Shown: positions 4,792 through 42,697 of the stretch, one piece after another
Position numbering within the stretch: position 1 is the first letter of the stretch
How the letters are laid out: each line of letters starts with the position of its first letter
Assembly: GCF_000711225.1 (NCBI RefSeq)
Contig: NZ_JOMG01000004.1
Coordinates: 744,001-808,000 of the forward strand
Direction: 5' to 3'
Origin: Pelobacter seleniigenes DSM 18267
GTDB taxonomy: Bacteria; Desulfobacterota; Desulfuromonadia; Desulfuromonadales; Geopsychrobacteraceae
DNA length: 64,000 nt
Position numbers and translations under genes: made by a program
Notes under the pieces: generated by a model
Told to the model about the DNA's origin: nothing
The model's input: the letters and a program-made list of their open reading frames with translations, nothing else
The model's database searches: none

Positions 4792-5124
4792 TCATTTTTC
4801 CGCCGACATCAGCCCGGTGACTGATTGACAATTCCTGTCTTCGTAATCCCCGGCGAGCACGCACATCAACGCCTTGATCAATGCTGGGTTCGTGAGGAAA
4901 TAGCACCGCTTTTTCCCGTCTTCAGTGAAACTGACAACTCCCTCGCGTCTCAGAATCGACAGGTGCTGTGACAGGTTGGGTTGCGGAACGCTGAGAATCT
5001 CGCAGACATCGCTGACGCATTTCGTGCCATCCTTCAAAGAATCCAGGATGGCAAGTCGCGTCGGATGAGCCAATACGCGCAACAGGTCCGCCCATTCGGC
5101 ATAATTACTTGTTTCCACAGTCAC
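4792..5124 (-). CDS. ArsR/SmtB-family winged-helix repressor
   Basis: I place the start at the GTG at 5124, behind GCGAGG. The frame stays open to 5193, but that would overlap the end of the DsrE gene and add a non-homologous leader. The resulting 110-residue protein is a standard ArsR winged helix: ADLLRVLAHPTRLAIL, then the recognition helix region VPQPNLSQHLSILRREGVV and the wing TEDGKKRCYFL. The third helix reads KCVSDVC. It aligns with the CVCDLC arsenite site of E. coli-type ArsR, with the first and third cysteines kept and the second replaced by Ser. Arsenite, antimonite or another thiophilic inducer is therefore plausible but not proven. It sits inside the operon it probably controls. 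Confidence 0.88.
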   Translation of the reverse strand: MTVETSNYAEWADLLRVLAHPTRLAILDSLKDGTKCVSDVCEILSVPQPNLSQHLSILRREGVVSFTEDGKKRCYFLTNPALIKALMCVLAGDYEDRNCQSVTGLMSAEK

Positions 5125-5156
5125 GTCCTCGCTGATATTTCCAATTGGGTAGGCAC

Positions 5157-5513
5157 TCAAAAGGTGAGCACCTTGTCGCTGTCCACCACCCATTCAGAAA
5201 GCGCGGCCATCGTGGACTGCTCCGCCCCTTCAAAATACGGGTGGTTTTTATAGATCCCGCAACGGGCCATGCAGGTGCCGCAAACCTTTACGGGAACACC
5301 TCCGACGATAAGATCTTTCAGCATCTGCGAAAGGTCCTGGTCGTAACCTTCCGGCGGCTTACAGACATCCCTTGCCATATCTACGGCATCGTTCATAAGG
5401 AAAATCCGCACGCTCTGGCCGGTTTCCAATAGCTTTCCGGCAAGACGCAGACCGTTCCAGGTCACGTCCGTGTTGTCATAAGGTTCGCGGTTGAAAATAA
5501 TCAAGATATTCAT
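5157..5513 (-). CDS. DsrE-family sulfur-relay-like protein
   Basis: This 118-residue protein follows a good AGGAGAG ribosome site. It has the DsrE/DsrF fold signature: N-terminal MNILIIFNREPYDNTD strand, a GLRLAGKLLETGQSVRIFLMNDAV core and the active cysteine loop VCGTCMARCGI near residue 80. The family includes sulfur-transfer proteins such as TusD and DsrE that carry persulfide on a cysteine. Single DsrE genes next to ArsR-type regulators are common in stress loci, so this one is more likely a stress or sulfur-handling protein than part of dissimilatory sulfur oxidation. It lies 13 bp after the first methyltransferase and 32 bp before the regulator. Confidence 0.85.
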   Translation of the reverse strand: MNILIIFNREPYDNTDVTWNGLRLAGKLLETGQSVRIFLMNDAVDMARDVCKPPEGYDQDLSQMLKDLIVGGVPVKVCGTCMARCGIYKNHPYFEGAEQSTMAALSEWVVDSDKVLTF

Positions 5514-9546: not shown

Positions 9547-11679
9547 ATGAACCATGTGATCCACAACAGCATCGTGAATTTTATCTGGGGTATCGCCGAC
9601 GACGTGTTGCGCGATGTCTATGTGCGCGGCAAGTACCGCGATGTGATCCTGCCGATGACGGTTATCCGCCGCCTCGATGCGCTCTTGGAGCCGAGCAAAG
9701 AAAAGGTGCTCGGCATGAAGAAGCAGCTCGACGGGGCCGGGATCGCCAATCAACACGCCGCGCTCTGCCAGGCCTCCGGCGAGGCCTTTTACAACGTTTC
9801 GCCCTTTACCCTGCGCGACCTGAAGAACCGTGCCAAGCAACAGCAACTCAAGGCCGATTTCGAAGCCTACCTGGACGGCTTTTCGCCCAACGTCCAGGAG
9901 ATCCTCGACAAGTTCAAGTTCCGCAACCAGATCCCCACGTTGATCGAGGCGGACATCCTCGGCCACCTGATCGAGAAGTTCCTCGACGGCCGCATCAACC
10001 TCAGCCCGAAGCCGGTGCAGGACGTGGACGGCAACGAGATCCTTCCGGCGCTCGACAACCACTCCATGGGCACCATCTTCGAGGAGCTGATCCGCCGTTT
10101 CAACGAAGAGAACAACGAAGAAGCCGGAGAGCACTTCACGCCCCGCGACGTGGTCAAGCTCATGGCCGACCTGATTTTCCTGCCGGTGAAGGGTGATATC
10201 GAGTCCGGCACTTACCTCGTTTACGACGGGGCCTGCGGCACCGGCGGCATGCTGACCGTGGCGGAGGAGCGCCTGACCGAACTGGCGGCAAACCACAGCA
10301 AGGATGTTTCTATTCATCTATATGGGCAGGAAATAAACCCTGAAACTTATGCAATCACAAAAGCCGACCTGCTGCTGAAAGGCGAAGGGGCCGAGGCAGA
10401 GAACATGAAGTACGGCTCCACGCTCTCCAGCGATGCCTTCCCGTCGCAGGAATTCGACTTCATGCTCTCCAATCCGCCCTACGGCAAGAGCTGGAAGACC
10501 GACTTGGAGCGCCTGGGCGGCAAGGGCGACATCAAAGACCCGCGCTTCGTCACCCAGCACGGCGGCGACCCGGAATACAAGATGATCACCCGTTCCTCGG
10601 ACGGGCAGCTCATGTTCCTGGTCAACAAGCTCTCCAAGATGAAGCACACCACCCGCCTCGGCAGCCGCATCGCCGAGGTTCACAACGGCTCGTCGCTCTT
10701 CACCGGCGACGCCGGTCAGGGTGAGAGCAACATCCGCCGCTGGATCATCGAAAACGACTGGCTGGAGGCCATCATCGCCCTGCCGGAGAACATGTTCTAC
10801 AACACCGGCATCGCTACCTACATCTGGGTACTGACCAACCGCAAGAGCGAGGAACGCAAGGGCAAGGTCCAGCTCATCGACACCACCGAATGGTACGTTC
10901 CGCTGCGCCGCAATCTTGGGAAGAAGAATTGCGAATTCTCCGAGGAACACATCCGCGCCATCTGCGACCTAGTGGTCAATCCGGTCGAGACCGAGAAATC
11001 CAAGATCTTCCCCAACGAGGCCTTCGGCTACTGGAAGGTGACGGTGGACCGCCCGCTGCGCCTCGCCGTTGACCTGAGCCCGGCCCGGCTGGAACGGTTT
11101 GTGAAAACCTGCACCAAGGCGAAGGAAGAGCCGCTGGCCAACCTGGCCAGTCGCGTGGCCGAGCCCCTCGGTGCTGGGCCGCACCTGGATTTCAACGCCT
11201 TCATGGATGCCTGCGACACCGATGCCGACAAACACGGCGTCAAGCTCACCGCCAAGCGCAAGAAGCTGCTGCAAAGCGAGCTCTGCGACACCAGCGAGGA
11301 TGCCGCGCCGGTGCTGAAGAAGATTTACAAGCCCGGCAAGGCCACGCCCGACCCCATCCACGGACTGTTCGAGGCCGAGGTGAATGGTAAGACCTGCGTG
11401 GTCGAATACGAGCCGGATACCGCTCTGCGCGACAGCGAGCAGGTGCCGCTGCTGGAGGAAGGCGGTATCGATGCGTTCTTCCGGCGCGAGGTGCTGCCCT
11501 ACACCCCGGATGCCTGGATCGACCCGGGTAAGACACAGGTGGGTTACGAGATCTCCTTCACCCGCCATTTCTATCGGCCAGCGCCCATGCGCACCCTGGA
11601 TGAGATTAAGGATGACATCTATGCCCTGGAGCAGGAAACCGAAGGGCTGCTGGAACAGATTGTCGGGGAGGCTGAGTAA
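9547..11679 (+). CDS. hsdM: Type I restriction-modification system, M subunit (N6-adenine methyltransferase)
   Basis: The 710-residue protein has the HsdM N-terminal helical domain (residues about 5-160) and an N6-adenine methyltransferase domain. SAM-binding motif I is VYDGACGTGGML near residue 226 and catalytic motif IV is NPPYG at about residue 309. It methylates adenine in the sequence read by HsdS and is required for both modification and restriction. At 710 residues it is longer than the usual 500-550. The extra C-terminal part (from about residue 500) holds a Lys/Asp-rich region and a final coiled-coil-like segment that may hold HsdS. Its stop overlaps the start of hsdS by one base. 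Confidence 0.95.
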   Translation: MNHVIHNSIVNFIWGIADDVLRDVYVRGKYRDVILPMTVIRRLDALLEPSKEKVLGMKKQLDGAGIANQHAALCQASGEAFYNVSPFTLRDLKNRAKQQQLKADFEAYLDGFSPNVQEILDKFKFRNQIPTLIEADILGHLIEKFLDGRINLSPKPVQDVDGNEILPALDNHSMGTIFEELIRRFNEENNEEAGEHFTPRDVVKLMADLIFLPVKGDIESGTYLVYDGACGTGGMLTVAEERLTELAANHSKDVSIHLYGQEINPETYAITKADLLLKGEGAEAENMKYGSTLSSDAFPSQEFDFMLSNPPYGKSWKTDLERLGGKGDIKDPRFVTQHGGDPEYKMITRSSDGQLMFLVNKLSKMKHTTRLGSRIAEVHNGSSLFTGDAGQGESNIRRWIIENDWLEAIIALPENMFYNTGIATYIWVLTNRKSEERKGKVQLIDTTEWYVPLRRNLGKKNCEFSEEHIRAICDLVVNPVETEKSKIFPNEAFGYWKVTVDRPLRLAVDLSPARLERFVKTCTKAKEEPLANLASRVAEPLGAGPHLDFNAFMDACDTDADKHGVKLTAKRKKLLQSELCDTSEDAAPVLKKIYKPGKATPDPIHGLFEAEVNGKTCVVEYEPDTALRDSEQVPLLEEGGIDAFFRREVLPYTPDAWIDPGKTQVGYEISFTRHFYRPAPMRTLDEIKDDIYALEQETEGLLEQIVGEAE

Positions 11680-13100
11680 TGAAGCTGGCCCCTTATCCAG
11701 ACTACAAGGACGCGGGTGTGAGCTGGGTCGGGAGCATTCCCGCGCATTGGCCTGAGAAGCGGGCAAAATATTACTTCAAAGAGATCGATGAACGCTCCCA
11801 GGCAGGCGACGAAGAAATGCTCTCGGTGTCGCACATCACGGGAGTGACACCCCGCAGCCAGAAGAACGTAACCATGTTCAAGGCCGAGTCGAATGTCGGC
11901 CAAAAATGCTGCCAACCAGGCGATCTGGTCATCAATACGATGTGGGCCTGGATGTCTGCACTCGGTGTCTCGAATCATGCTGGAATTGTAAGCCCCGCTT
12001 ATGGCGTTTACCGGCCAAGAGGCAACCAGGCCTACGATAACTATTATCTCGATCATCTGTTGCGGATTGAAGGATATCGGTCGGAATATATTTGCCGGTC
12101 AACGGGCATTCGCTCTTCACGGCTCAGGCTCTATCCCGATAAATTTCTGAGCATGCCGGTGGTCTGCCCTCCGCAGGAAGAGCAACAGACCATCGCACGA
12201 TTCCTGAAGGCGCAGGACCGCTTGTTCCGTAAATTCATCCGCAACAAGCGGCGGCTCATCGAACTGCTCAAGGAGCAGAAGCAGAACGTCATCAACCAAG
12301 CCGTGACCCGGGGGCTTGATCCCAAGGTCAATTTCAAGCCCAGCGGCGTGGAATGGATCGGAGATATTCCGGAGCATTGGGACGCCAGACGGCTCCGCAC
12401 GCTGGCGGCGGTCAGGGCAAGTGGCGTCGACAAGAACACGAACGAGGACGAAGTCCCGGTCATGCTCTGCAACTACGTGGACGTTTACAAGAACGACCGC
12501 ATCACCGCTGCCATCGATTTCATGAAGGCCACGGCCACGCTGGAAGAAATTCGCGCTTTTGAGCTGAAAGCGGGTGACGTGATCATCACCAAGGACTCCG
12601 AAAGCTGGGATGACATCGCCATTCCCACTTTCGTGCCCGAGGCAATTCCAGGCGTCGTTTGTGCCTATCACTTGGCCTTGATCAGACCGTTCTCAGGGGA
12701 AATCGAAGGCGAGTTTCTGTTCAGGGCCTTCTCATCCGACCCCGTGGCAGACCAGTTCCGGATTGCCGCCACCGGCGTTACTCGCTTTGGCTTGGCGCAA
12801 GGTGCAATCAAGGGAGCGTTCTTCCCACTCCCGCCGTTGGACGAACAGCGGGCGATTATTGCTCACATCAATGAGAAGTGCGCCGAGATAAGCCAGGCGA
12901 TTTCAAGGGCCGAGCGTGAGATCGAACTGATGCGCGAATACCGCACCCGGCTGATTTCCGATGTGGTCACCGGTCAGGTGGATGTACGCGGCATCGAGGT
13001 GCCGGATGTTGCTGTGGACGAACTGCTTGCGATAGATGAGGACACCAGTGAGTCCGATGACGTGATCGATGACGAGGGGGATATGGATGAAACCGACTGA
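11679..13100 (+). CDS. hsdS: Type I restriction-modification system, specificity subunit
   Basis: This 473-residue protein shows the two-fold HsdS architecture. Each half opens with a similar motif (VSWVGSIPAHW near residue 10, VEWIGDIPEHW near 222) and ends with PPQEEQQTIARFL or PPLDEQRAIIAHI before a long helix. The two variable target-recognition domains thus read a bipartite DNA site. The last 40 residues are strikingly acidic (ending DDEGDMDETD), which is not part of the core fold. The ATG overlaps the end of hsdM, and hsdR starts inside its last codons, so the three genes are tightly coupled. The target sequence cannot be predicted from the protein. Confidence 0.93.
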   Translation: MKLAPYPDYKDAGVSWVGSIPAHWPEKRAKYYFKEIDERSQAGDEEMLSVSHITGVTPRSQKNVTMFKAESNVGQKCCQPGDLVINTMWAWMSALGVSNHAGIVSPAYGVYRPRGNQAYDNYYLDHLLRIEGYRSEYICRSTGIRSSRLRLYPDKFLSMPVVCPPQEEQQTIARFLKAQDRLFRKFIRNKRRLIELLKEQKQNVINQAVTRGLDPKVNFKPSGVEWIGDIPEHWDARRLRTLAAVRASGVDKNTNEDEVPVMLCNYVDVYKNDRITAAIDFMKATATLEEIRAFELKAGDVIITKDSESWDDIAIPTFVPEAIPGVVCAYHLALIRPFSGEIEGEFLFRAFSSDPVADQFRIAATGVTRFGLAQGAIKGAFFPLPPLDEQRAIIAHINEKCAEISQAISRAEREIELMREYRTRLISDVVTGQVDVRGIEVPDVAVDELLAIDEDTSESDDVIDDEGDMDETD

Positions 13101-16074
13101 CACCAGCGAAAAGGGCCTGGAATCGATCATCGTCGCCTCCCTTGTGGAGGATGCCGGATATGTTCAAGGCGACCCGCAGGACTACGACCGCGAACATGCC
13201 GTCGACCTGGCCAAGTTGCTGCAATTTCTCGCCGCCACCCAGCCCGATACCTTTGAGGCTCTCGGCATCGACGAGGAAGGCCCCAAGCGCACCCAGTTCC
13301 TGCACCGCCTGCAGGGCGAGATCGCCAAGCGCGGCGTGGTAGACGTGCTGCGCGGCGGCATCAAGCACGGCCCGGCCCATGTGGACATTTTCTACGGCAC
13401 GCCGACGCCGGGCAACGTGAAGGCAGCGGAACGGTTCGCGGCCAACATCTTCAGCGTCACCCGCCAGCTCCGCTACAGCCGCAACGAGACTGCTCTCTCC
13501 CTCGACATGGCCGTGTTCATCAACGGCCTGCCCATCGCCACCTTCGAACTCAAAAATAAGCTCACCAAGCAGACGGTGCTCGATGCCGTGCAGCAGTACC
13601 AGCGCGACCGCGACCCGAAGGAGCTGCTGTTTCAGTTCGGCCGTTGCGTCGTCCATTTTGCCGTGGACGATCACGAGGTGCGTTTCTGTACCCACCTCAA
13701 GGGCAAGGGCTCGTGGTTTCTGCCCTTCGACAAAGGCTACAACGACGGCGCTGGCAATCCGCCGAACCCTCATGGGCTCGCCACCGATTACCTGTGGAAG
13801 GAGACCCTCTCCAAAGAGGGGTTGACCGATATCCTGGAAAACTACGCCCAGGTGGTGGAGGAAAAGGACGAGAAGACCGGCAAAAAGAGGTGCAAGCAGA
13901 TTTTCCCTCGCTACCACCAGTTGAAGGTGGTGCGCATGCTGCTGGCCAATGCCGCTGAGAGTGGCATCGGCAGGCGCTACCTGATCCAGCACTCGGCGGG
14001 CAGCGGCAAAAGTAACTCCATCGCCTGGCTGGCGCACCAGCTCGTGGGGCTGGAGCACGAGAGCAAGGCGTTGTTCGATTCGGTCATCGTGGTCACCGAC
14101 CGACGGGTGCTCGACAAACAGATCCGCGACACCATCAAGCAGTTCGCCCAGGTCTCCGCCACCGTCGGCCATGCCGAACACTCCGGCGACCTGCGCAAAT
14201 TCCTCAAGGCCGGGAAGAAAATCATCATCACCACCGTGCAGAAGTTCCCGTTCATACTCGATGAGATCGGCGACGAACACCGCCAGAGCAAGTTCGCCAT
14301 CATCATCGACGAGGCCCATTCCAGCCAGGGCGGCAAGACCACCGCCGCCATGAACCGTGTGCTGGAAGAGACCGCGCCCTACGGCGGCTCTGATGCCGAG
14401 GGGGAAGAGACAGTCGAGGACAAGATCAACAAGATCATGGAAGGCCGGAAGATGGTGACCAACGCCAGCTACTTTGCCTTCACCGCGACCCCAAAGAACA
14501 AGACCCTGGAGATCTTCGGCGAGCCGGACCCGCAACCCGACGGCACAGTAAAGCATCACCCGTTCCACAGCTACACCATGAAACAGGCCATCCAGGAGGG
14601 CTTCATCCTCGATGTGCTGAAGAACTACACCCCGGTTGAGAGTTATTACCGCCTGGCCAAGACCGTGGAGGACGACCCGCTCTTCGACGCCAAGAAAGCC
14701 CAGAAGAAGCTGCGTCGCTATGTGGAGTCCCACGAGCATGCCATCCGCGAGAAGGCCGAGATCATGGTGGACCACTTCCACGCCCAGGTGATCGGCCATC
14801 GCAAGATCGGCGGCCATGCCCGGGCCATGGTCATCACCAACGGCATTGTGCGGGCCATCCAGTATTTCCACGCCTTCAAGGATTACCTCAAGGAGCGCAA
14901 GAGCCCTTACGAGCCCATCGTGGCTTTTTCCGGGGAGCACGAGTACGGCGGCAAAAAGGTCACTGAGGCGACCCTGAACGGCTTTCCCAGCAGTCAGATC
15001 CCGGACAAGGTTCAGCAGGACCCGTACCGCTTCCTGATCGTCGCCGACAAGTATCAGACCGGCTACGACGAACCACTGCTGCACACCATGTACGTGGACA
15101 AGGCGCTTTCCAGCATCAAGGCGGTGCAGACCCTCTCGCGGCTCAATCGCGCCCATCCGCAGAAGCACGACACTTTTGTGCTCGATTTCTACAACGACTC
15201 GGAGACCATCCAGAAGTCGTTCGAGCCCTATTACCGGACCACCATCCTCAGTGACGAGACCGACCCCAACAAGCTCCATGATCTGAAGTCGGATCTGGAC
15301 GGCTACCAGGTCTATTCGCAAACGCAAATCGACGACCTGGTGGGGCTCTACCTGAACGGCGCGGACCGCGACAAGCTCGACCCGATCCTGGATGCCTGCG
15401 TGGCCACCTACAACGCCGATCTCGATGAAGACGGCCAGGTGGACTTCAAGGGCAAGGCCAAGGCTTTCGTCCGCACCTACGGCTTTCTGTCCTCGATTCT
15501 GGCGTACTCGAATGCCGACTGGGAAAAGCTGTCGATCTTTCTGAATTTCCTGATCCCGAAACTCCCCGCGCCCAAGGAAGAGGACCTGTCCCGGGGCATC
15601 CTGGAGGCCATCGACATGGACAGCTACCGTGTCGAGGTGAAAACCAGCCTGAAGATTGGCCTTCCGGATCAGGATGCCGAAATCGGACCGGTGCCGACCA
15701 GCGGCGGCGGCCGCAAACCGGAACCTGAGCTGGACCAACTGAGCAACATCATCAAGGCGTTCAACGACCAGTTCGGCAACATCGATTGGAAGGACGGCGA
15801 CAAGATCCGCAAGGTTATCGCCGAGGAGATCCCGGCCAAGGTGGCGGCGGACGCGGCCTACCAGAACGCCATGAAGAACAACGACAAGAAGACCGCCCGG
15901 ATTGAGCACGACGCCGCGCTACAGCGCGTCATGATCGACCTCCTGTCCGACCATACCGAACTGTTCAAGCAGTTCAGCGACAACCCGTCTTTCAAGAAGT
16001 GGCTGGGCGACACCATTTTCGGCGTGACCTACCAGCAACAGGCCGGACAATCGCCGAGAGGAGAGGCGCTGTGA
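13087..16074 (+). CDS. hsdR: Type I restriction endonuclease, R subunit
   Basis: I place the start at ATG 13087 (MKPTDTSEKGLE), behind GAGGGGG; an earlier in-frame codon at 13069 has no ribosome site. The 995-residue protein has the nuclease domain (Glu-X-Lys in TFELKNK near residue 154), Walker A SAGSGKSNSIAW near 302, the DEAH box IIDEAHSSQGGKT near 407 and the TATP motif III near 464. It is the ATP-driven translocase and nuclease that cuts unmodified DNA. It overlaps hsdS by 14 bp and, unusually, its stop overlaps the GTG start of a response-regulator gene. No frameshift or missing motif is seen, so the system should be active. Confidence 0.95.
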   Translation: MKPTDTSEKGLESIIVASLVEDAGYVQGDPQDYDREHAVDLAKLLQFLAATQPDTFEALGIDEEGPKRTQFLHRLQGEIAKRGVVDVLRGGIKHGPAHVDIFYGTPTPGNVKAAERFAANIFSVTRQLRYSRNETALSLDMAVFINGLPIATFELKNKLTKQTVLDAVQQYQRDRDPKELLFQFGRCVVHFAVDDHEVRFCTHLKGKGSWFLPFDKGYNDGAGNPPNPHGLATDYLWKETLSKEGLTDILENYAQVVEEKDEKTGKKRCKQIFPRYHQLKVVRMLLANAAESGIGRRYLIQHSAGSGKSNSIAWLAHQLVGLEHESKALFDSVIVVTDRRVLDKQIRDTIKQFAQVSATVGHAEHSGDLRKFLKAGKKIIITTVQKFPFILDEIGDEHRQSKFAIIIDEAHSSQGGKTTAAMNRVLEETAPYGGSDAEGEETVEDKINKIMEGRKMVTNASYFAFTATPKNKTLEIFGEPDPQPDGTVKHHPFHSYTMKQAIQEGFILDVLKNYTPVESYYRLAKTVEDDPLFDAKKAQKKLRRYVESHEHAIREKAEIMVDHFHAQVIGHRKIGGHARAMVITNGIVRAIQYFHAFKDYLKERKSPYEPIVAFSGEHEYGGKKVTEATLNGFPSSQIPDKVQQDPYRFLIVADKYQTGYDEPLLHTMYVDKALSSIKAVQTLSRLNRAHPQKHDTFVLDFYNDSETIQKSFEPYYRTTILSDETDPNKLHDLKSDLDGYQVYSQTQIDDLVGLYLNGADRDKLDPILDACVATYNADLDEDGQVDFKGKAKAFVRTYGFLSSILAYSNADWEKLSIFLNFLIPKLPAPKEEDLSRGILEAIDMDSYRVEVKTSLKIGLPDQDAEIGPVPTSGGGRKPEPELDQLSNIIKAFNDQFGNIDWKDGDKIRKVIAEEIPAKVAADAAYQNAMKNNDKKTARIEHDAALQRVMIDLLSDHTELFKQFSDNPSFKKWLGDTIFGVTYQQQAGQSPRGEAL

Positions 16075-16748
16075 GGATTCTTGTCGTTGAAGACGACAAA
16101 CAAACCCTGCAATTCATTGCCAAGGGATTACGACAGGAAGGCTTCGCCGTGGACCTTGCCTCCAATGGCGAAGACGGACTTCATTTCGCCCTTACAGAGC
16201 CTTATGACGCTGCGGTGGTCGACGTGATGTTGCCCAAATTGGATGGTCTGGCCCTGATAGACGAAATGCGCAGCAACCGGGTTCATACCCCGGTTATCGT
16301 TTTAAGCGCCAAGGGTTCGGTGGATGACCGTATCAAGGGGTTACAGGCGGGAGGCGACGATTATCTGGTAAAGCCCTTCGCTTTCTCGGAGTTGGTCGCG
16401 CGTCTTCAGGCTCTCATCAGAAGGGCTACTCGAGAGGATGCACCGACGTTTCTCTCCGTCGGCAATCTCGAAATGGATTTGGTGAAGCGAAAGGTCTTTC
16501 GTGACGGGGTTTCAATCGATTTGCAACCCAAGGAATTCGCCTTGCTGGAGTATTTGATGAGGAACATGGGCCGGGTTGTATCGAAAACGATGATCATGGA
16601 GCACGTTTGGGATTACAACTTCGATCCTCGGACCACAGTGGTGGAAGCTCGCGTATGCCGGCTGCGGGACAAGGTCGACCGCCCATTCGGGAACGACCTT
16701 ATCCACACAGTCAGGGGAGTCGGCTATGTTCTGGAAGAGCGGGCGTAG
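16071..16748 (+). CDS. OmpR-family response regulator
   Basis: The start is the GTG at 16071 (VRILVVEDDKQTL), preceded by GAGAGGAG and overlapping the hsdR stop as GTGA; upstream in-frame codons belong to hsdR. The 225-residue protein has a receiver domain with the phospho-acceptor Asp51 in AAVVDVMLPKLDG, Thr/Ser switch in PVIVLSAKG and Lys in LVKPF, then an OmpR/PhoB winged helix from about residue 125 (LQPKEFALLEYL ... VVEARVCRLRDKVD). It resembles the CusR/QseB subgroup. The cognate kinase gene overlaps its end by 23 bp. Direct repeats at 18144-18187 are a likely target. Confidence 0.92.
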   Translation: MRILVVEDDKQTLQFIAKGLRQEGFAVDLASNGEDGLHFALTEPYDAAVVDVMLPKLDGLALIDEMRSNRVHTPVIVLSAKGSVDDRIKGLQAGGDDYLVKPFAFSELVARLQALIRRATREDAPTFLSVGNLEMDLVKRKVFRDGVSIDLQPKEFALLEYLMRNMGRVVSKTMIMEHVWDYNFDPRTTVVEARVCRLRDKVDRPFGNDLIHTVRGVGYVLEERA

Positions 16749-38863: not shown

Positions 38864-39883
38864 GTGCATCAATTGAGTAAAAAGCGAATTTTCATTACAG
38901 GGATCGCAGGTTTTTTAGGGAGTCATATAGCGGACAGGTGTCTGGCTGAAGGGTACAGGGTGTCGGGATGTGACAACCTGACGGGTGGCTATCTTGACAA
39001 TGTTCCGCGTGGTGCTGTGTTTCATCAGGTCGATTGCAATGATTTTGCGTCACTGGCCCCTTTGATGAAAGATGTCGATATCGTCTACCATTGCGCGGCT
39101 ACAGCTTATGAAGGCCTCTCCGTCTTCAGCCCCCATCTGGTGACCCGGAACGTGGTCACGGCCACCAGTGGCGTTGTTTCCGCGGCGGCGGCCGGAGGGG
39201 TGGGGCGCTTTGTGCTCTGCTCGTCCATGGCCAGGTACGGCACAAATAAGGTTCCGTTTACCGAGGATATGGTGCCGGCTCCTCAGGACCCTTACGGTAT
39301 CGCCAAATGGAGTGCGGAACGGCTGCTGGCCAATATCGCCGAAACCCACGGGATGGAGTGGGTGGTGGCGGTTCCTCACAATATCATCGGGCCACGGCAG
39401 CGCTATGACGATCCCTATCGCAACGTGGCCGCTATCTTCATCAACCTGATGTTGCAAGGACGGCAACCCTATATCTACGGGGATGGCAATCAGAAACGCT
39501 GCTTCAGTTTTGTCTCTGATGTGGTGGATCCGCTTTTCCTTATGGCGACCAACGACCGTTGTGTCCGGGAGGTGATCAATATTGGCCCCGATGATGAATT
39601 TGTGACCATCAACGAGCTTGCCACCATGATCGCTCGGCTTCTTGACTTTGATCTGCAACCGAATCGGATCGATGGTCGTCCCCAGGAGGTTTCCTTTGCC
39701 AACTGCAACGCCGACAAAGCCCGGCGCTTGCTCGCTTACCAGCCGAAGGTGAAACTCGAAGAGGGCTTGGTGGTTATGATTGACTGGATAAAATCGCGTG
39801 GACCGCGGCCTTTTCTGCATAATGTGGAGTTGGAAATAGCCGGGCCGACTGCGCCGAAAACATGGTCGAAGAAGATCCTGTGA
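38864..39883 (+). CDS. NAD-dependent epimerase/dehydratase (extended SDR)
   Basis: The 339-residue protein is an extended SDR of the UDP-glucose 4-epimerase type: GIAGFLGSHIAD near residue 13 (Gly motif for NAD), YHCAATAYEG near 75, Ser/Met in LCSSMARYG near 120, catalytic YGIAK near 148 and the substrate-binding region NIIGPRQRYDDPYRN near 175. It would interconvert nucleotide sugars for surface polysaccharide. The start is taken at GTG 38864, which has no good ribosome site, so the true start may differ. Its stop is followed by a strong AAGGAGG that appears to serve the next gene. Confidence 0.88.
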   Translation: MHQLSKKRIFITGIAGFLGSHIADRCLAEGYRVSGCDNLTGGYLDNVPRGAVFHQVDCNDFASLAPLMKDVDIVYHCAATAYEGLSVFSPHLVTRNVVTATSGVVSAAAAGGVGRFVLCSSMARYGTNKVPFTEDMVPAPQDPYGIAKWSAERLLANIAETHGMEWVVAVPHNIIGPRQRYDDPYRNVAAIFINLMLQGRQPYIYGDGNQKRCFSFVSDVVDPLFLMATNDRCVREVINIGPDDEFVTINELATMIARLLDFDLQPNRIDGRPQEVSFANCNADKARRLLAYQPKVKLEEGLVVMIDWIKSRGPRPFLHNVELEIAGPTAPKTWSKKIL

Positions 39884-39966
39884 TAAGGAGGATATCGGAC
39901 TTTACATGAATCTGCTACGAAACCGTCTGATCGGCCCATATTCCCGATCCTTTTCGACAAATAGCT

Positions 39967-41346
39967 ATGGCTATTCGCTCTCAAATGATCGAAAATCTGT
40001 TCTCGAGCAGCCAATTTCTCGCAATGATCCGCAAAGTCCGACAGCCTCCTATGCTGCTCGATAACGAAACGGAAGGCGCAGGGCTCACACCAAAGGCCGC
40101 TACGCTTTTGGCGGAGGCCACGGCATTGGAAGGACGCCTGCATCGGCCCGGAGTGCGCGATGACTATCGCACCCGGCTCGAGCAGGTTGTCTTATTGGCT
40201 ACCAGTCGGCTGGATAGCGCGGTGGAAAACCGCGAGGTTAAGTTGCTGCAATGGCTGTTGGTTCAGGCTCAGGCGGCCCGGGCCGAGGATGCGCGTTATG
40301 GTGCCGGGCAGCTTTCGCGTGGGTCGCAGCGGGCGCCAACCTTGGCAGATTGTGAAGACGGCTGGCAGCGCGTTAAGGAGATCGTTTGCACTGCAGAAGA
40401 GTCGGCATTGGAGGCCGCTCGATTTGCCCGGCTACTTGATACCGCCAAAGCGCAAGCGCTGGCCTGCAGAGCTGAGGCTGCTGCAAATGCCGCCAGACAA
40501 ATCATCACAGAGCGGAACCGCGCCTACACCTTTCATGCCGATCCCGGTTTTTCCTTTGGTGAAGGCTGGTACCTGGCTGCTGCGGCACTGTTTGCCGGCC
40601 TTCTCATTCAGATTCGGCCTGGCGCTGTCCAGGAATTGCCGGCCAAGCGCTTCCTTTGCGCTGCCGGCCTAGTAGGCTCCCTGCGCCCATATCGGTCTCG
40701 TCCGGCGAGTCCCAAACATCTGACCCACATCATTGCTGAAGCTTTTCATGCCGACGCGCCCACAGCACAACGCACCCTGCGCGCAGCATTTCTGGGCGAC
40801 GAGTCGCCAGCGGCTTCCTTAAGATCATGGATCGATGGCAAGGTGGGCGGAAACCCTGAACAGAAGGTGCTGCTATGGGTTCGAACGGGTGACCATGATG
40901 CCGGGCGCAATACCTGCTTCGATGAATTGCACCAGCTTGCTGAACTGGTATCGGATGCCGGGCTCATGCCCATCTTTTTCGGCGATGCTGTTCCTTTAGA
41001 GCTGGTTCCGACACGCGCTGTCAACCTGACCCTGTGCTGGAAAGAACCGCTCTTTCAGGGGCCGGACATGCGCCGAGCTCAACTGCAACTGTTTGAAGAG
41101 TTGCGGTGCCGCCACGGTCTGGTGGGACAGCTTGGTGTGACTACGGCCGGCATGGACGGACCGGCGCTGATGGGATTACCCACCCTTTATCTCACCCAGG
41201 AACGCAACGTCCGCCTGGGCAAGTGGGTGGGCGCCGTTCCGGGCTATCAGGAAGTCGTGCGCGAACCGGGCTATTTTGACATCATCCGCACCACCCTGCA
41301 GCAGTGGCAGCAGTCAGCCCCCGGGCTTGCTGACCGAATCTCTTGA
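39967..41346 (+). CDS. Hypothetical protein, possibly glycan-related
   Basis: A 459-residue protein I cannot assign. The N-terminal 185 residues are helical and Ala/Arg/Leu-rich. A hydrophobic stretch near 195 (YLAAAALFAGLLIQI) could be a membrane segment. The C-terminal 170 residues (LLWVRTGDHDAGRNTCFDEL, then GMDGPALMGLPTLYLT) have a Rossmann-like look reminiscent of GT-B glycosyltransferases, in which GPALMGLPT would be the donor-binding loop. It follows the epimerase by 83 bp, supporting a sugar-related role (inference). A strong AAGGAGG at 39885-39891 instead precedes a 52-codon frame starting at ATG 39906, so the N terminus may be frameshifted or misassigned. Confidence 0.6.
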   Translation: MAIRSQMIENLFSSSQFLAMIRKVRQPPMLLDNETEGAGLTPKAATLLAEATALEGRLHRPGVRDDYRTRLEQVVLLATSRLDSAVENREVKLLQWLLVQAQAARAEDARYGAGQLSRGSQRAPTLADCEDGWQRVKEIVCTAEESALEAARFARLLDTAKAQALACRAEAAANAARQIITERNRAYTFHADPGFSFGEGWYLAAAALFAGLLIQIRPGAVQELPAKRFLCAAGLVGSLRPYRSRPASPKHLTHIIAEAFHADAPTAQRTLRAAFLGDESPAASLRSWIDGKVGGNPEQKVLLWVRTGDHDAGRNTCFDELHQLAELVSDAGLMPIFFGDAVPLELVPTRAVNLTLCWKEPLFQGPDMRRAQLQLFEELRCRHGLVGQLGVTTAGMDGPALMGLPTLYLTQERNVRLGKWVGAVPGYQEVVREPGYFDIIRTTLQQWQQSAPGLADRIS

Positions 41347-41505: not shown

Positions 41506-42697
41506 ATGGCTCTGGATTACGCCACATTAGAGTTGCTCCGCCAAAATCGTTTGCCTGGCGGTTACTGCGTGCTCAGCATGCGCCGCTGGTGGCCGGTTTT
41601 CTGGACCGGGTATTCATTGTGCCCAATGTCCGCAATCTGTCTCAGGCAGATTTGGTCGAGGCTTTAGAAGACGAGCTCTTCACTTTGCGTGAACAACTGG
41701 GTGCTGAAGCTTTTCCCGGAACTGCGCAAAGTTATCTTAATGATTGGGCCGACAACGACAAGGGATGGTTGCGGAAATTTTATCCACCCGGGACGGACGA
41801 ACCATACTTTGACCTGACTCCGGCAACGGAAAAGCGGCGGAGTTGTTTGCTTCTTTGGTTGAACTGATCAGGGAAAAACAGCCTGTTTTAATCCCCTGGC
41901 TGGTCAAGCGACCGTTGCGTGCCTTGGCCTTGGCCGAAGATTGGCCGCAACTACTGGATATTGTCGCCTGGTGTTTGACCCATCCTCGGCCCGCGATATA
42001 TCTGCGACAGATCGATCTGCCGGGTGTTCATACCAAATTGATCGAAGGCCATCGCGGGGTACTGACGGAACTCCTTGACCTTGTCTTGCCTGAGGATTGC
42101 ATTGATGGGGTGCACACGGGCATCGGCGGCTTCTGCCGGCGGTATGGGTTCATCGACAAACCTGCGCGAGTTCGTTTTCGGGTGTTGGCCGCGAATGTTC
42201 GATTGCTGCCAGTCGAAGCAGATCAGGATATCACCCTGACTCAGGCCGCCTTTGCCACCCTTGATCCGCCAGTAGCGAAGGTCTTCATCACTGAAAACGA
42301 GGTCAACTTTCTGGCCTTTCCGGAGGTTCCTGATGCACTGGTCATTTTCGGGGCGGGATATGGCTTTGACAACCTTGCCGCCGCCCCTTGGCTGCACCGG
42401 AAGAACCTTTATTATTGGGGGGATATCGATACCCATGGTTTTGCCATTCTCAACCAGCTGCGTGGCTTTTTTCCCCACGTGGAATCTTTTCTCATGGATC
42501 AGCAGACACTTTTGGCCCATAGATCTCTTTGGGGCGTTGAGGGGCAGCCTGAAACCGGGATGCTTTCCCGATTAAACGCTGAGGAATCAACCCTTTATGA
42601 TCAACTGCGGTAAAATCACTGGGGAGATCGAGTTCGACTTGAGCAAGAGCGGATAAGGTTCGATTTATTACTTGAGGTCCTGCACGAGTTGGTCTGA
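41506..42697 (+). pseudogene. Wadjet defence relic: JetA N-terminus joined to JetD C-terminus
   Basis: The locus starts at ATG 41506 with LELLRQN, shifts frame near 41555 (WRLLRAQHAPLVAGFLDRVF follows) and reads as the N-terminal ~105 residues of JetA (DUF3375), including DDKGWLRKFYPPG-like sequence (DNDKGWLRKFYPPGTDEP) and FDLTPATEK. A second one-base loss in an A-run near 41830 shifts into a frame that passes directly into JetD: PWLVKRPLRALALAEDW, YLRQIDLPGVHTK, then the DUF2220 TOPRIM region ITENEVNF and YWGDIDTHGFAILNQL. A TAA at 42611-42613 interrupts the frame; the remaining 28 codons (WGDRVRLEQERIRF) still match the JetD end. The rest of jetA, jetB, jetC and the start of jetD are missing. 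JetABCD is an SMC-type anti-plasmid system; this copy is dead. Confidence 0.85.

Follow-up and report, generated by a model that had tools for sequence, protein, structure and literature searches.

Described Wadjet systems and their loss

In the excerpts of PMC10586767 consulted, JetABC is described as the sensor of the Wadjet system and JetD as a Toprim nuclease with an N-terminal CAP-type domain, and all four subunits are required to suppress plasmid transformation. Excerpts of two other papers report broken Wadjet genes: a frameshifted jetC is mentioned among Wadjet pseudogenes in the PADLOC web-server paper (PMC9252829), and JetA and JetC pseudogenes are recorded in some strains of Xylella (PMC9148166). 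According to a further excerpt (PMC12287153), targeted deletion of jetABCD in Clostridium cellulovorans raised the uptake of a conjugative plasmid by about five orders of magnitude, and a spontaneous deletion of ~23 kb had taken the whole of jetABCD in a laboratory line. Wadjet pseudogenes are therefore mentioned in the literature, and in the parts of it consulted we found no mention of a jetA-jetD collapse.

Here we describe such a collapse in a window of 64,000 nucleotides from Pelobacter seleniigenes DSM 18267. Like the cases in the excerpts of PMC9252829 and PMC9148166, it consists of broken Wadjet genes in a natural genome, but it differs from what those excerpts describe in that one deletion fuses the first and the last genes of the operon. 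With C. cellulovorans, as excerpted, it shares the loss of the system through a spontaneous deletion, although here 5.4 kb appears to be missing within the operon of a sequenced genome, whereas there ~23 kb disappeared from a laboratory line. The intact type I Wadjet operons of three relatives (L022, L024, and L026) have jetA and jetD parts 79 to 90% identical to the remnant (protein, main blocks) and the same gene order, strand, and start region. In contrast to them, the remnant has neither jetB nor jetC, lacks the bulk of jetA and the beginning of jetD, and carries a frameshift, an out-of-frame joint, and a premature stop.

A type I operon reduced to two gene fragments

The locus is almost certainly a nonfunctional remnant of a type I Wadjet operon, produced by one internal deletion of ~5.4 kb and further decay. 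Its features are the following:

41506..41834, + strand: jetA 5' remnant, ~110 of ~482 codons (type I Wadjet kleisin, DUF3375)
41543..41552 (near 41548), + strand: frameshift in the jetA remnant, a net one-base length change in the nucleotide alignment to L022, L024, and L026
41833..41835, + strand: deletion joint between jetA and jetD, out of frame, with at most ~2 bases of microhomology as judged from relatives
41834..42697, + strand: jetD 3' remnant, about codons 106 to 392 of 392, N-terminal part gone and C-terminal part present
42611-42613, + strand: premature TAA in jetD, where 7/7 aligned JetD have sense codons; behind it, 27 codons remain conserved up to the usual stop

An earlier note had called this a collapsed JetABCD locus, and matches to PF11855, PF11795, PF09983, and the PADLOC JetA1 and JetD1 profiles, far beyond chance for both pieces, confirm that identification. 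PF11855 matches the main open part of the jetA piece with an E value of 2.5e-22 and PADLOC JetA1 matches the piece with 1.1e-34. Only positions ~6 to 98 of 474 of PF11855 are covered, with the frameshift inside, and this partial coverage is a mark of ancestry, not of a working protein. Across the main block, JetA of six relatives (L022, L023, L024, L026, L027, and L028) is 83 to 90% identical to the remnant, and the start codon and the bases upstream can be aligned with those of intact operons. In the jetD piece, JetD_C (PF09983) is found with an E value of 3.8e-50, DUF3322 (PF11795) with 5.1e-23 (profile positions 105 to 190 of 190 only), and PADLOC JetD1 with 2.6e-102, and sequence comparison with solved MksG and JetD proteins gave values from 5.3e-22 to 2.8e-11. 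Seven near-complete JetD proteins (L022 to L028) are 77 to 83% identical to the remnant; one of these comparators, L025, belongs to an operon that is itself broken.

The retained jetD amounts to ~287 codons, 259 ahead of the TAA and 27 behind it, closed by a TGA at 42695-42697. These 27 codons can be aligned with the seven relatives and alone match JetD_C positions 158 to 178 (E of 6.7e-4; 19.5 bits, just below the curated cut-off of 22), in agreement with the previously reported in-frame TAA followed by intact JetD sequence. A JetD_C search across the genome found a single TAA inside this match, the same one. With ~105 N-terminal codons absent and a stop before the last 27, the gene is not a full-length JetD. 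Nor is there a four-gene A-B-C-D set: only two fragments remain, in the order and on the strand of the operon, and since they are directly joined there is no room at the locus for jetB between them. Homology to intact genes combined with a frameshift, an out-of-frame joint, and a premature stop identifies the locus as a pseudogene.

The deletion and its joint

Nucleotide alignments to L022, L024, and L026 show jetA homology without a gap from 41549 through 41834; from about 41834-41835 onward the sequence is homologous to jetD, up to the gene end. In the coordinates of the same three operons the missing length is ~5.41 to 5.42 kb, comprising jetB and jetC in full, the remainder of jetA, and ~105 jetD codons. 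A single internal deletion of several kilobases, as the earlier note had proposed, is thereby upheld, with an estimated extent of ~5.4 kb. Some details given there have to be revised. The jetA piece was put at ~105 codons, close to the ~110 found, and the jetD piece at ~255, too few for the ~287 retained. The junction was expected near 41860-41880, and alignment to intact relatives places it ~25 to 45 bases upstream, at 41833-41835. Finally, of the two frameshifts described there, only the one near 41548 stands. The second frame change coincides with the deletion joint and arises because the jetA and jetD frames differ there, so two independent frameshifts were rejected.

Deletion through long direct repeats was not supported. 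The two ends share only ~1 to 2 bases at the joint in the relatives, whose sequences stood in for the host's own ancestral sequence in this comparison, and illegitimate deletion is therefore the likely mechanism. One such event, with little or no end homology, would have removed the ~5.4 kb between jetA codon ~110 and jetD codon ~105. It would have taken away the KITE subunit (JetB), the SMC motor (JetC), the greater part of the kleisin (JetA), and the N-terminal portion of the JetD nuclease, after which neither plasmid sensing nor cleavage could be expected to work. Because jetB and jetC are gone, the remaining genes are truncated, and all four subunits are needed, the locus cannot work as a Wadjet system.

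Intact and collapsed operons in relatives

To place the remnant among its relatives, 55 related loci were collected from the genome collection using the JetD part as the query. The L022 record is that of Desulfuromonadales bacterium C14-02, and G045 carries the same locus; the L052 record is named Desulfuromonadaceae and shares its locus with G031. In 30 of the 55 loci all four jet genes lay on one strand with coverage of at least 84%, some of them in several pieces and hence possibly interrupted. The remaining 25 comprise 13 with a match no more than 150 bases from an end of the available sequence and 12 that are incomplete internally. The comparison with relatives keeping the full operon that the earlier note had called for thus found intact four-gene operons. 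The same note had named homologues carrying an intact JetA-JetD fusion gene as the evidence that would overturn it, and among the 55 related loci there was no open fusion of this kind. jetA directly adjoins jetD in only two (L063 and L072), with the parts in different frames in both, and a conserved fusion gene was accordingly rejected.

L072 (positions 898-1586; contig 148 of G124) is an independent out-of-frame collapse in which jetA codons 1 to 42 are joined to jetD codons 177 to 361. As in the remnant, the 5' end of jetA is joined out of frame to a 3' part of jetD, and jetB and jetC were not found within the locus. Its breakpoints are different, lying after codon ~42 of jetA and near codon ~175 of jetD, and, unlike in the remnant, the jetD match stops at residue 361 and contains no interrupting stop codon. 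Over 136 genomes of the host's order, PF11855 was found at 35 places and JetD_C at 40. Matching the two tables by hand gave 22 jetA-jetD pairs at full-operon spacing and two collapsed pairs, the remnant and that of G124. These counts leave aside the JetD_C places without a partner and 10 further PF11855 places (JetD_C partner on a different contig or absent, or truncation at a contig end). In G067 (L078:7005-7229), a jetA stub of ~75 codons is followed by unrelated sequence, and the genome has no JetD_C place. Judged from these comparisons, the collapse of Wadjet operons appears to be a recurrent kind of event here.

Several other loci of the set are broken in different ways. In Desulfobulbus elongatus DSM 2908 (L025:8440-10852), a truncated type I restriction gene hsdR (PF04313, PF18766) runs with an overlap into a jetD that is nearly complete, starting at residue ~4, with no match to jetA, jetB, or jetC on either strand of 13.8 kb; a deletion seems to have joined two neighboring defense systems. 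Two Chlorobiaceae MAGs (L035:3581-3832 and L039:6067-6315) have apparently the same in-frame joint from jetA codons 1 to 56 to the end of jetB, open over 82 to 83 codons and located ahead of near-complete jetC and jetD, which may be either a shared relic or a reduced variant. In a Synergistaceae MAG (L033:3066-6392), jetA codons 1 to 407 run into jetC from about residue 422 in one open frame, without a jetB match and with jetD near complete. Two decayed copies (L063 and L071) lie on a single Desulfosporosinus MAG contig (JARLHV010000081.1), one with jetA in three frames followed by jetD and no jetB or jetC matches, the other with an internally gapped jetC ahead of an incomplete jetD.

Other Wadjet genes in the host genome

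The host genome comprises 5,088,373 bases in 6 contigs and is rated 100% complete. PF11855 was found at one place, the remnant (Corynebacterium glutamicum served as the positive control), and the JetD query likewise returned only the remnant itself. JetC of L022 had no match anywhere in the host genome, and the same query does match in G045. A JetC query from a second Wadjet lineage, which matched in the positive controls G109 and G072, found nothing in the host genome either. JetD_C was found at two places, the remnant and a second on contig 2, both truncated, and neither the JetD query nor the JetD_C search found a complete jetD in the genome. The remnant is the only type I Wadjet copy found there. 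No second genome of the host's genus was seen among the matches listed.

The second JetD_C place is a JetD remnant of another Wadjet lineage (L077:8817-9536, minus strand; about 2932316-2933035 of host contig 2). It matches PADLOC JetD1 (PDLC00521) with an E value of 4e-58 from profile position 149 of 395 and is flanked by a piece of an IS240-type transposase on the 5' side (PF13610, E of 8.8e-20) and an IS4-family transposase on the 3' side. Its relatives L105 and L106 (44% and 39% identity) are in apparent four-gene operons, and JetA of L106 belongs to PF18982.

Genomic surroundings

Two genes precede the remnant:

38864-39883: epimerase gene, upstream of the jet remnant
39967-41346: conserved protein, upstream of the jet remnant, unmatched in Pfam and NCBIfam at the chosen cut-offs

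This pair (38864-41346) occurs together in 16 of the 17 relatives' loci fetched for it, with identities of 87 to 93% for the epimerase and 76 to 84% for the unmatched protein, and no jet genes were found in any of the 17. Sequence similar to the first ~30 residues of the 39967-41346 ORF is scattered over many places in several genomes, and this stretch may be a repeat that does not belong to the protein. A possible recoded in-frame TGA in relatives of the upstream gene was considered and rejected, as it coincides with the end of the aligned protein and reads as an ordinary stop. Downstream of the remnant is a gene for an AbrB-type membrane protein that has no close relative in 134 genomes (the best other match has 30% identity and is partial), and because of this an empty site predating the insertion is not visible.

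All 47 ORFs of the window taken for the scan (at least 110 amino acids, little overlap) were compared one by one with PADLOC profiles at cut-offs from 1 to 1e-10. They revealed one other convincing defense locus, a type I restriction-modification system at 9547-16071, ~25 kb from the remnant, whose methyltransferase, specificity, and restriction subunits are open frames. An adjacent ORF (15999-16745) has a weak SduA/DUF4263 match (E of 5.2e-7). Genes for efflux, ABC-transporter, MFS, BacA, and PAP2 proteins separate this system from the jet remnant. A Csa3-type match (4795-5193, E of 5.3e-15) and two weak mad2 matches were all located at 4 to 6 kb; like the SduA match, they are at least 24 kb from the remnant. 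Hits to the mad3, mad8, and Cas3 profiles fall on ABC transporters and a helicase-like ORF. All of these mad, Cas3, and Csa3-type matches probably reflect resemblance at the level of whole families.

Alternative explanations

That the remnant marks a former defense island whose other members were likewise lost, as the earlier note held, is improbable. The restriction-modification system ~25 kb upstream, with the weak SduA-like match beside it, could be taken as its trace, but apart from the remnant no convincing defense match was present among the scanned ORFs at 18 to 63 kb, and several clustered defense genes, which would make an island, are not found, the next being ~25 kb away. The conserved epimerase pair, which adjoins no jet gene in the relatives, also argues against it, and we do not retain the island claim. 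An intact operon might have been collapsed or misread in assembly or sequencing; the frameshift and the stop are each single-base events, and either may be a sequencing error. An intact operon is very improbable in view of several observations. The joint would demand a misassembly of 5.4 kb within a 951-kb contig, and the 1 to 2 bases shared by the relatives' ends provide no repeat to explain it. Neither jetA and jetC of this lineage nor any complete jetD was found elsewhere in an assembly rated complete, three kinds of lesion coincide, and similar collapses occur in other genomes.

The age of the decay bears on whether the jetD fragment might still be in use. Over 280 JetD codons compared with L022 to L028, the remnant has unique residues at 5 of the 165 sites that are invariant in the other seven JetD; the same count for each of these seven gives 3 to 12. 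With no excess of unique changes, the collapse looks recent, and the comparison suggests recent loss of the Wadjet operon, although the result is also expected under continued selection on the jetD fragment. Such selection would imply that the 256-codon jetD ORF (41843-42610) is expressed as a shortened product, for example a decoy or a free nuclease. Besides the lack of excess changes, its frame being open throughout is consistent with this, as is the median pairwise dN/dS, 0.10 to the remnant and not above the 0.17 among the other seven, with dS to the remnant above 1 and near saturation. Nevertheless, the earliest listed start codon, a TTG, lies immediately past the joint and by eye has no well-spaced ribosome site, and the premature TAA cuts off the conserved C terminus. 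Moreover, what survives of jetD in the L072 collapse is another segment, and the two collapses therefore have no conserved product in common. We consider a selected product exceedingly improbable and return to the reading of a decayed, nonfunctional operon.

Implications for plasmid defense

The locus is an ordinary pseudogene, with no new mechanism or component, and its added interest is modest, coming from the recurrent collapse and from the second Wadjet remnant in the same genome. A broader scenario, which we regard as doubtful, is that Wadjet operons in this phylogenetic neighborhood may repeatedly collapse by internal deletion, with the first part of jetA and/or a Toprim-only end of jetD left over, since loss of the sensor together with an unregulated nuclease would favor, or soon precede, inactivation of jetD; the host would then have lost two Wadjet lineages and may be open to small plasmids.

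The ends of the two small host contigs (8.3 and 6.4 kb) do not overlap, and their genes look chromosomal by eye; no free plasmid was shown. On host contig 5 (L097:8028-14111), RepA_C, a relaxase, and by eye conjugation-type ORFs lie inside a contig of 471 kb that carries housekeeping genes, again by eye; this block is perhaps an integrated plasmid.

The strain is probably without Wadjet protection against small circular plasmids, and from the rise in uptake reported in the excerpt on C. cellulovorans (PMC12287153) a more open uptake of plasmids would be expected in this host. The remnant is a clear-cut case, apparently a recent one, of the loss of an anti-plasmid system, by a deletion from the first to the last gene followed by point decay. 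Together with the second jetD remnant and the collapses in relatives, it provides a small comparative set for asking how frequent Wadjet loss is and whether it accompanies plasmid gain.
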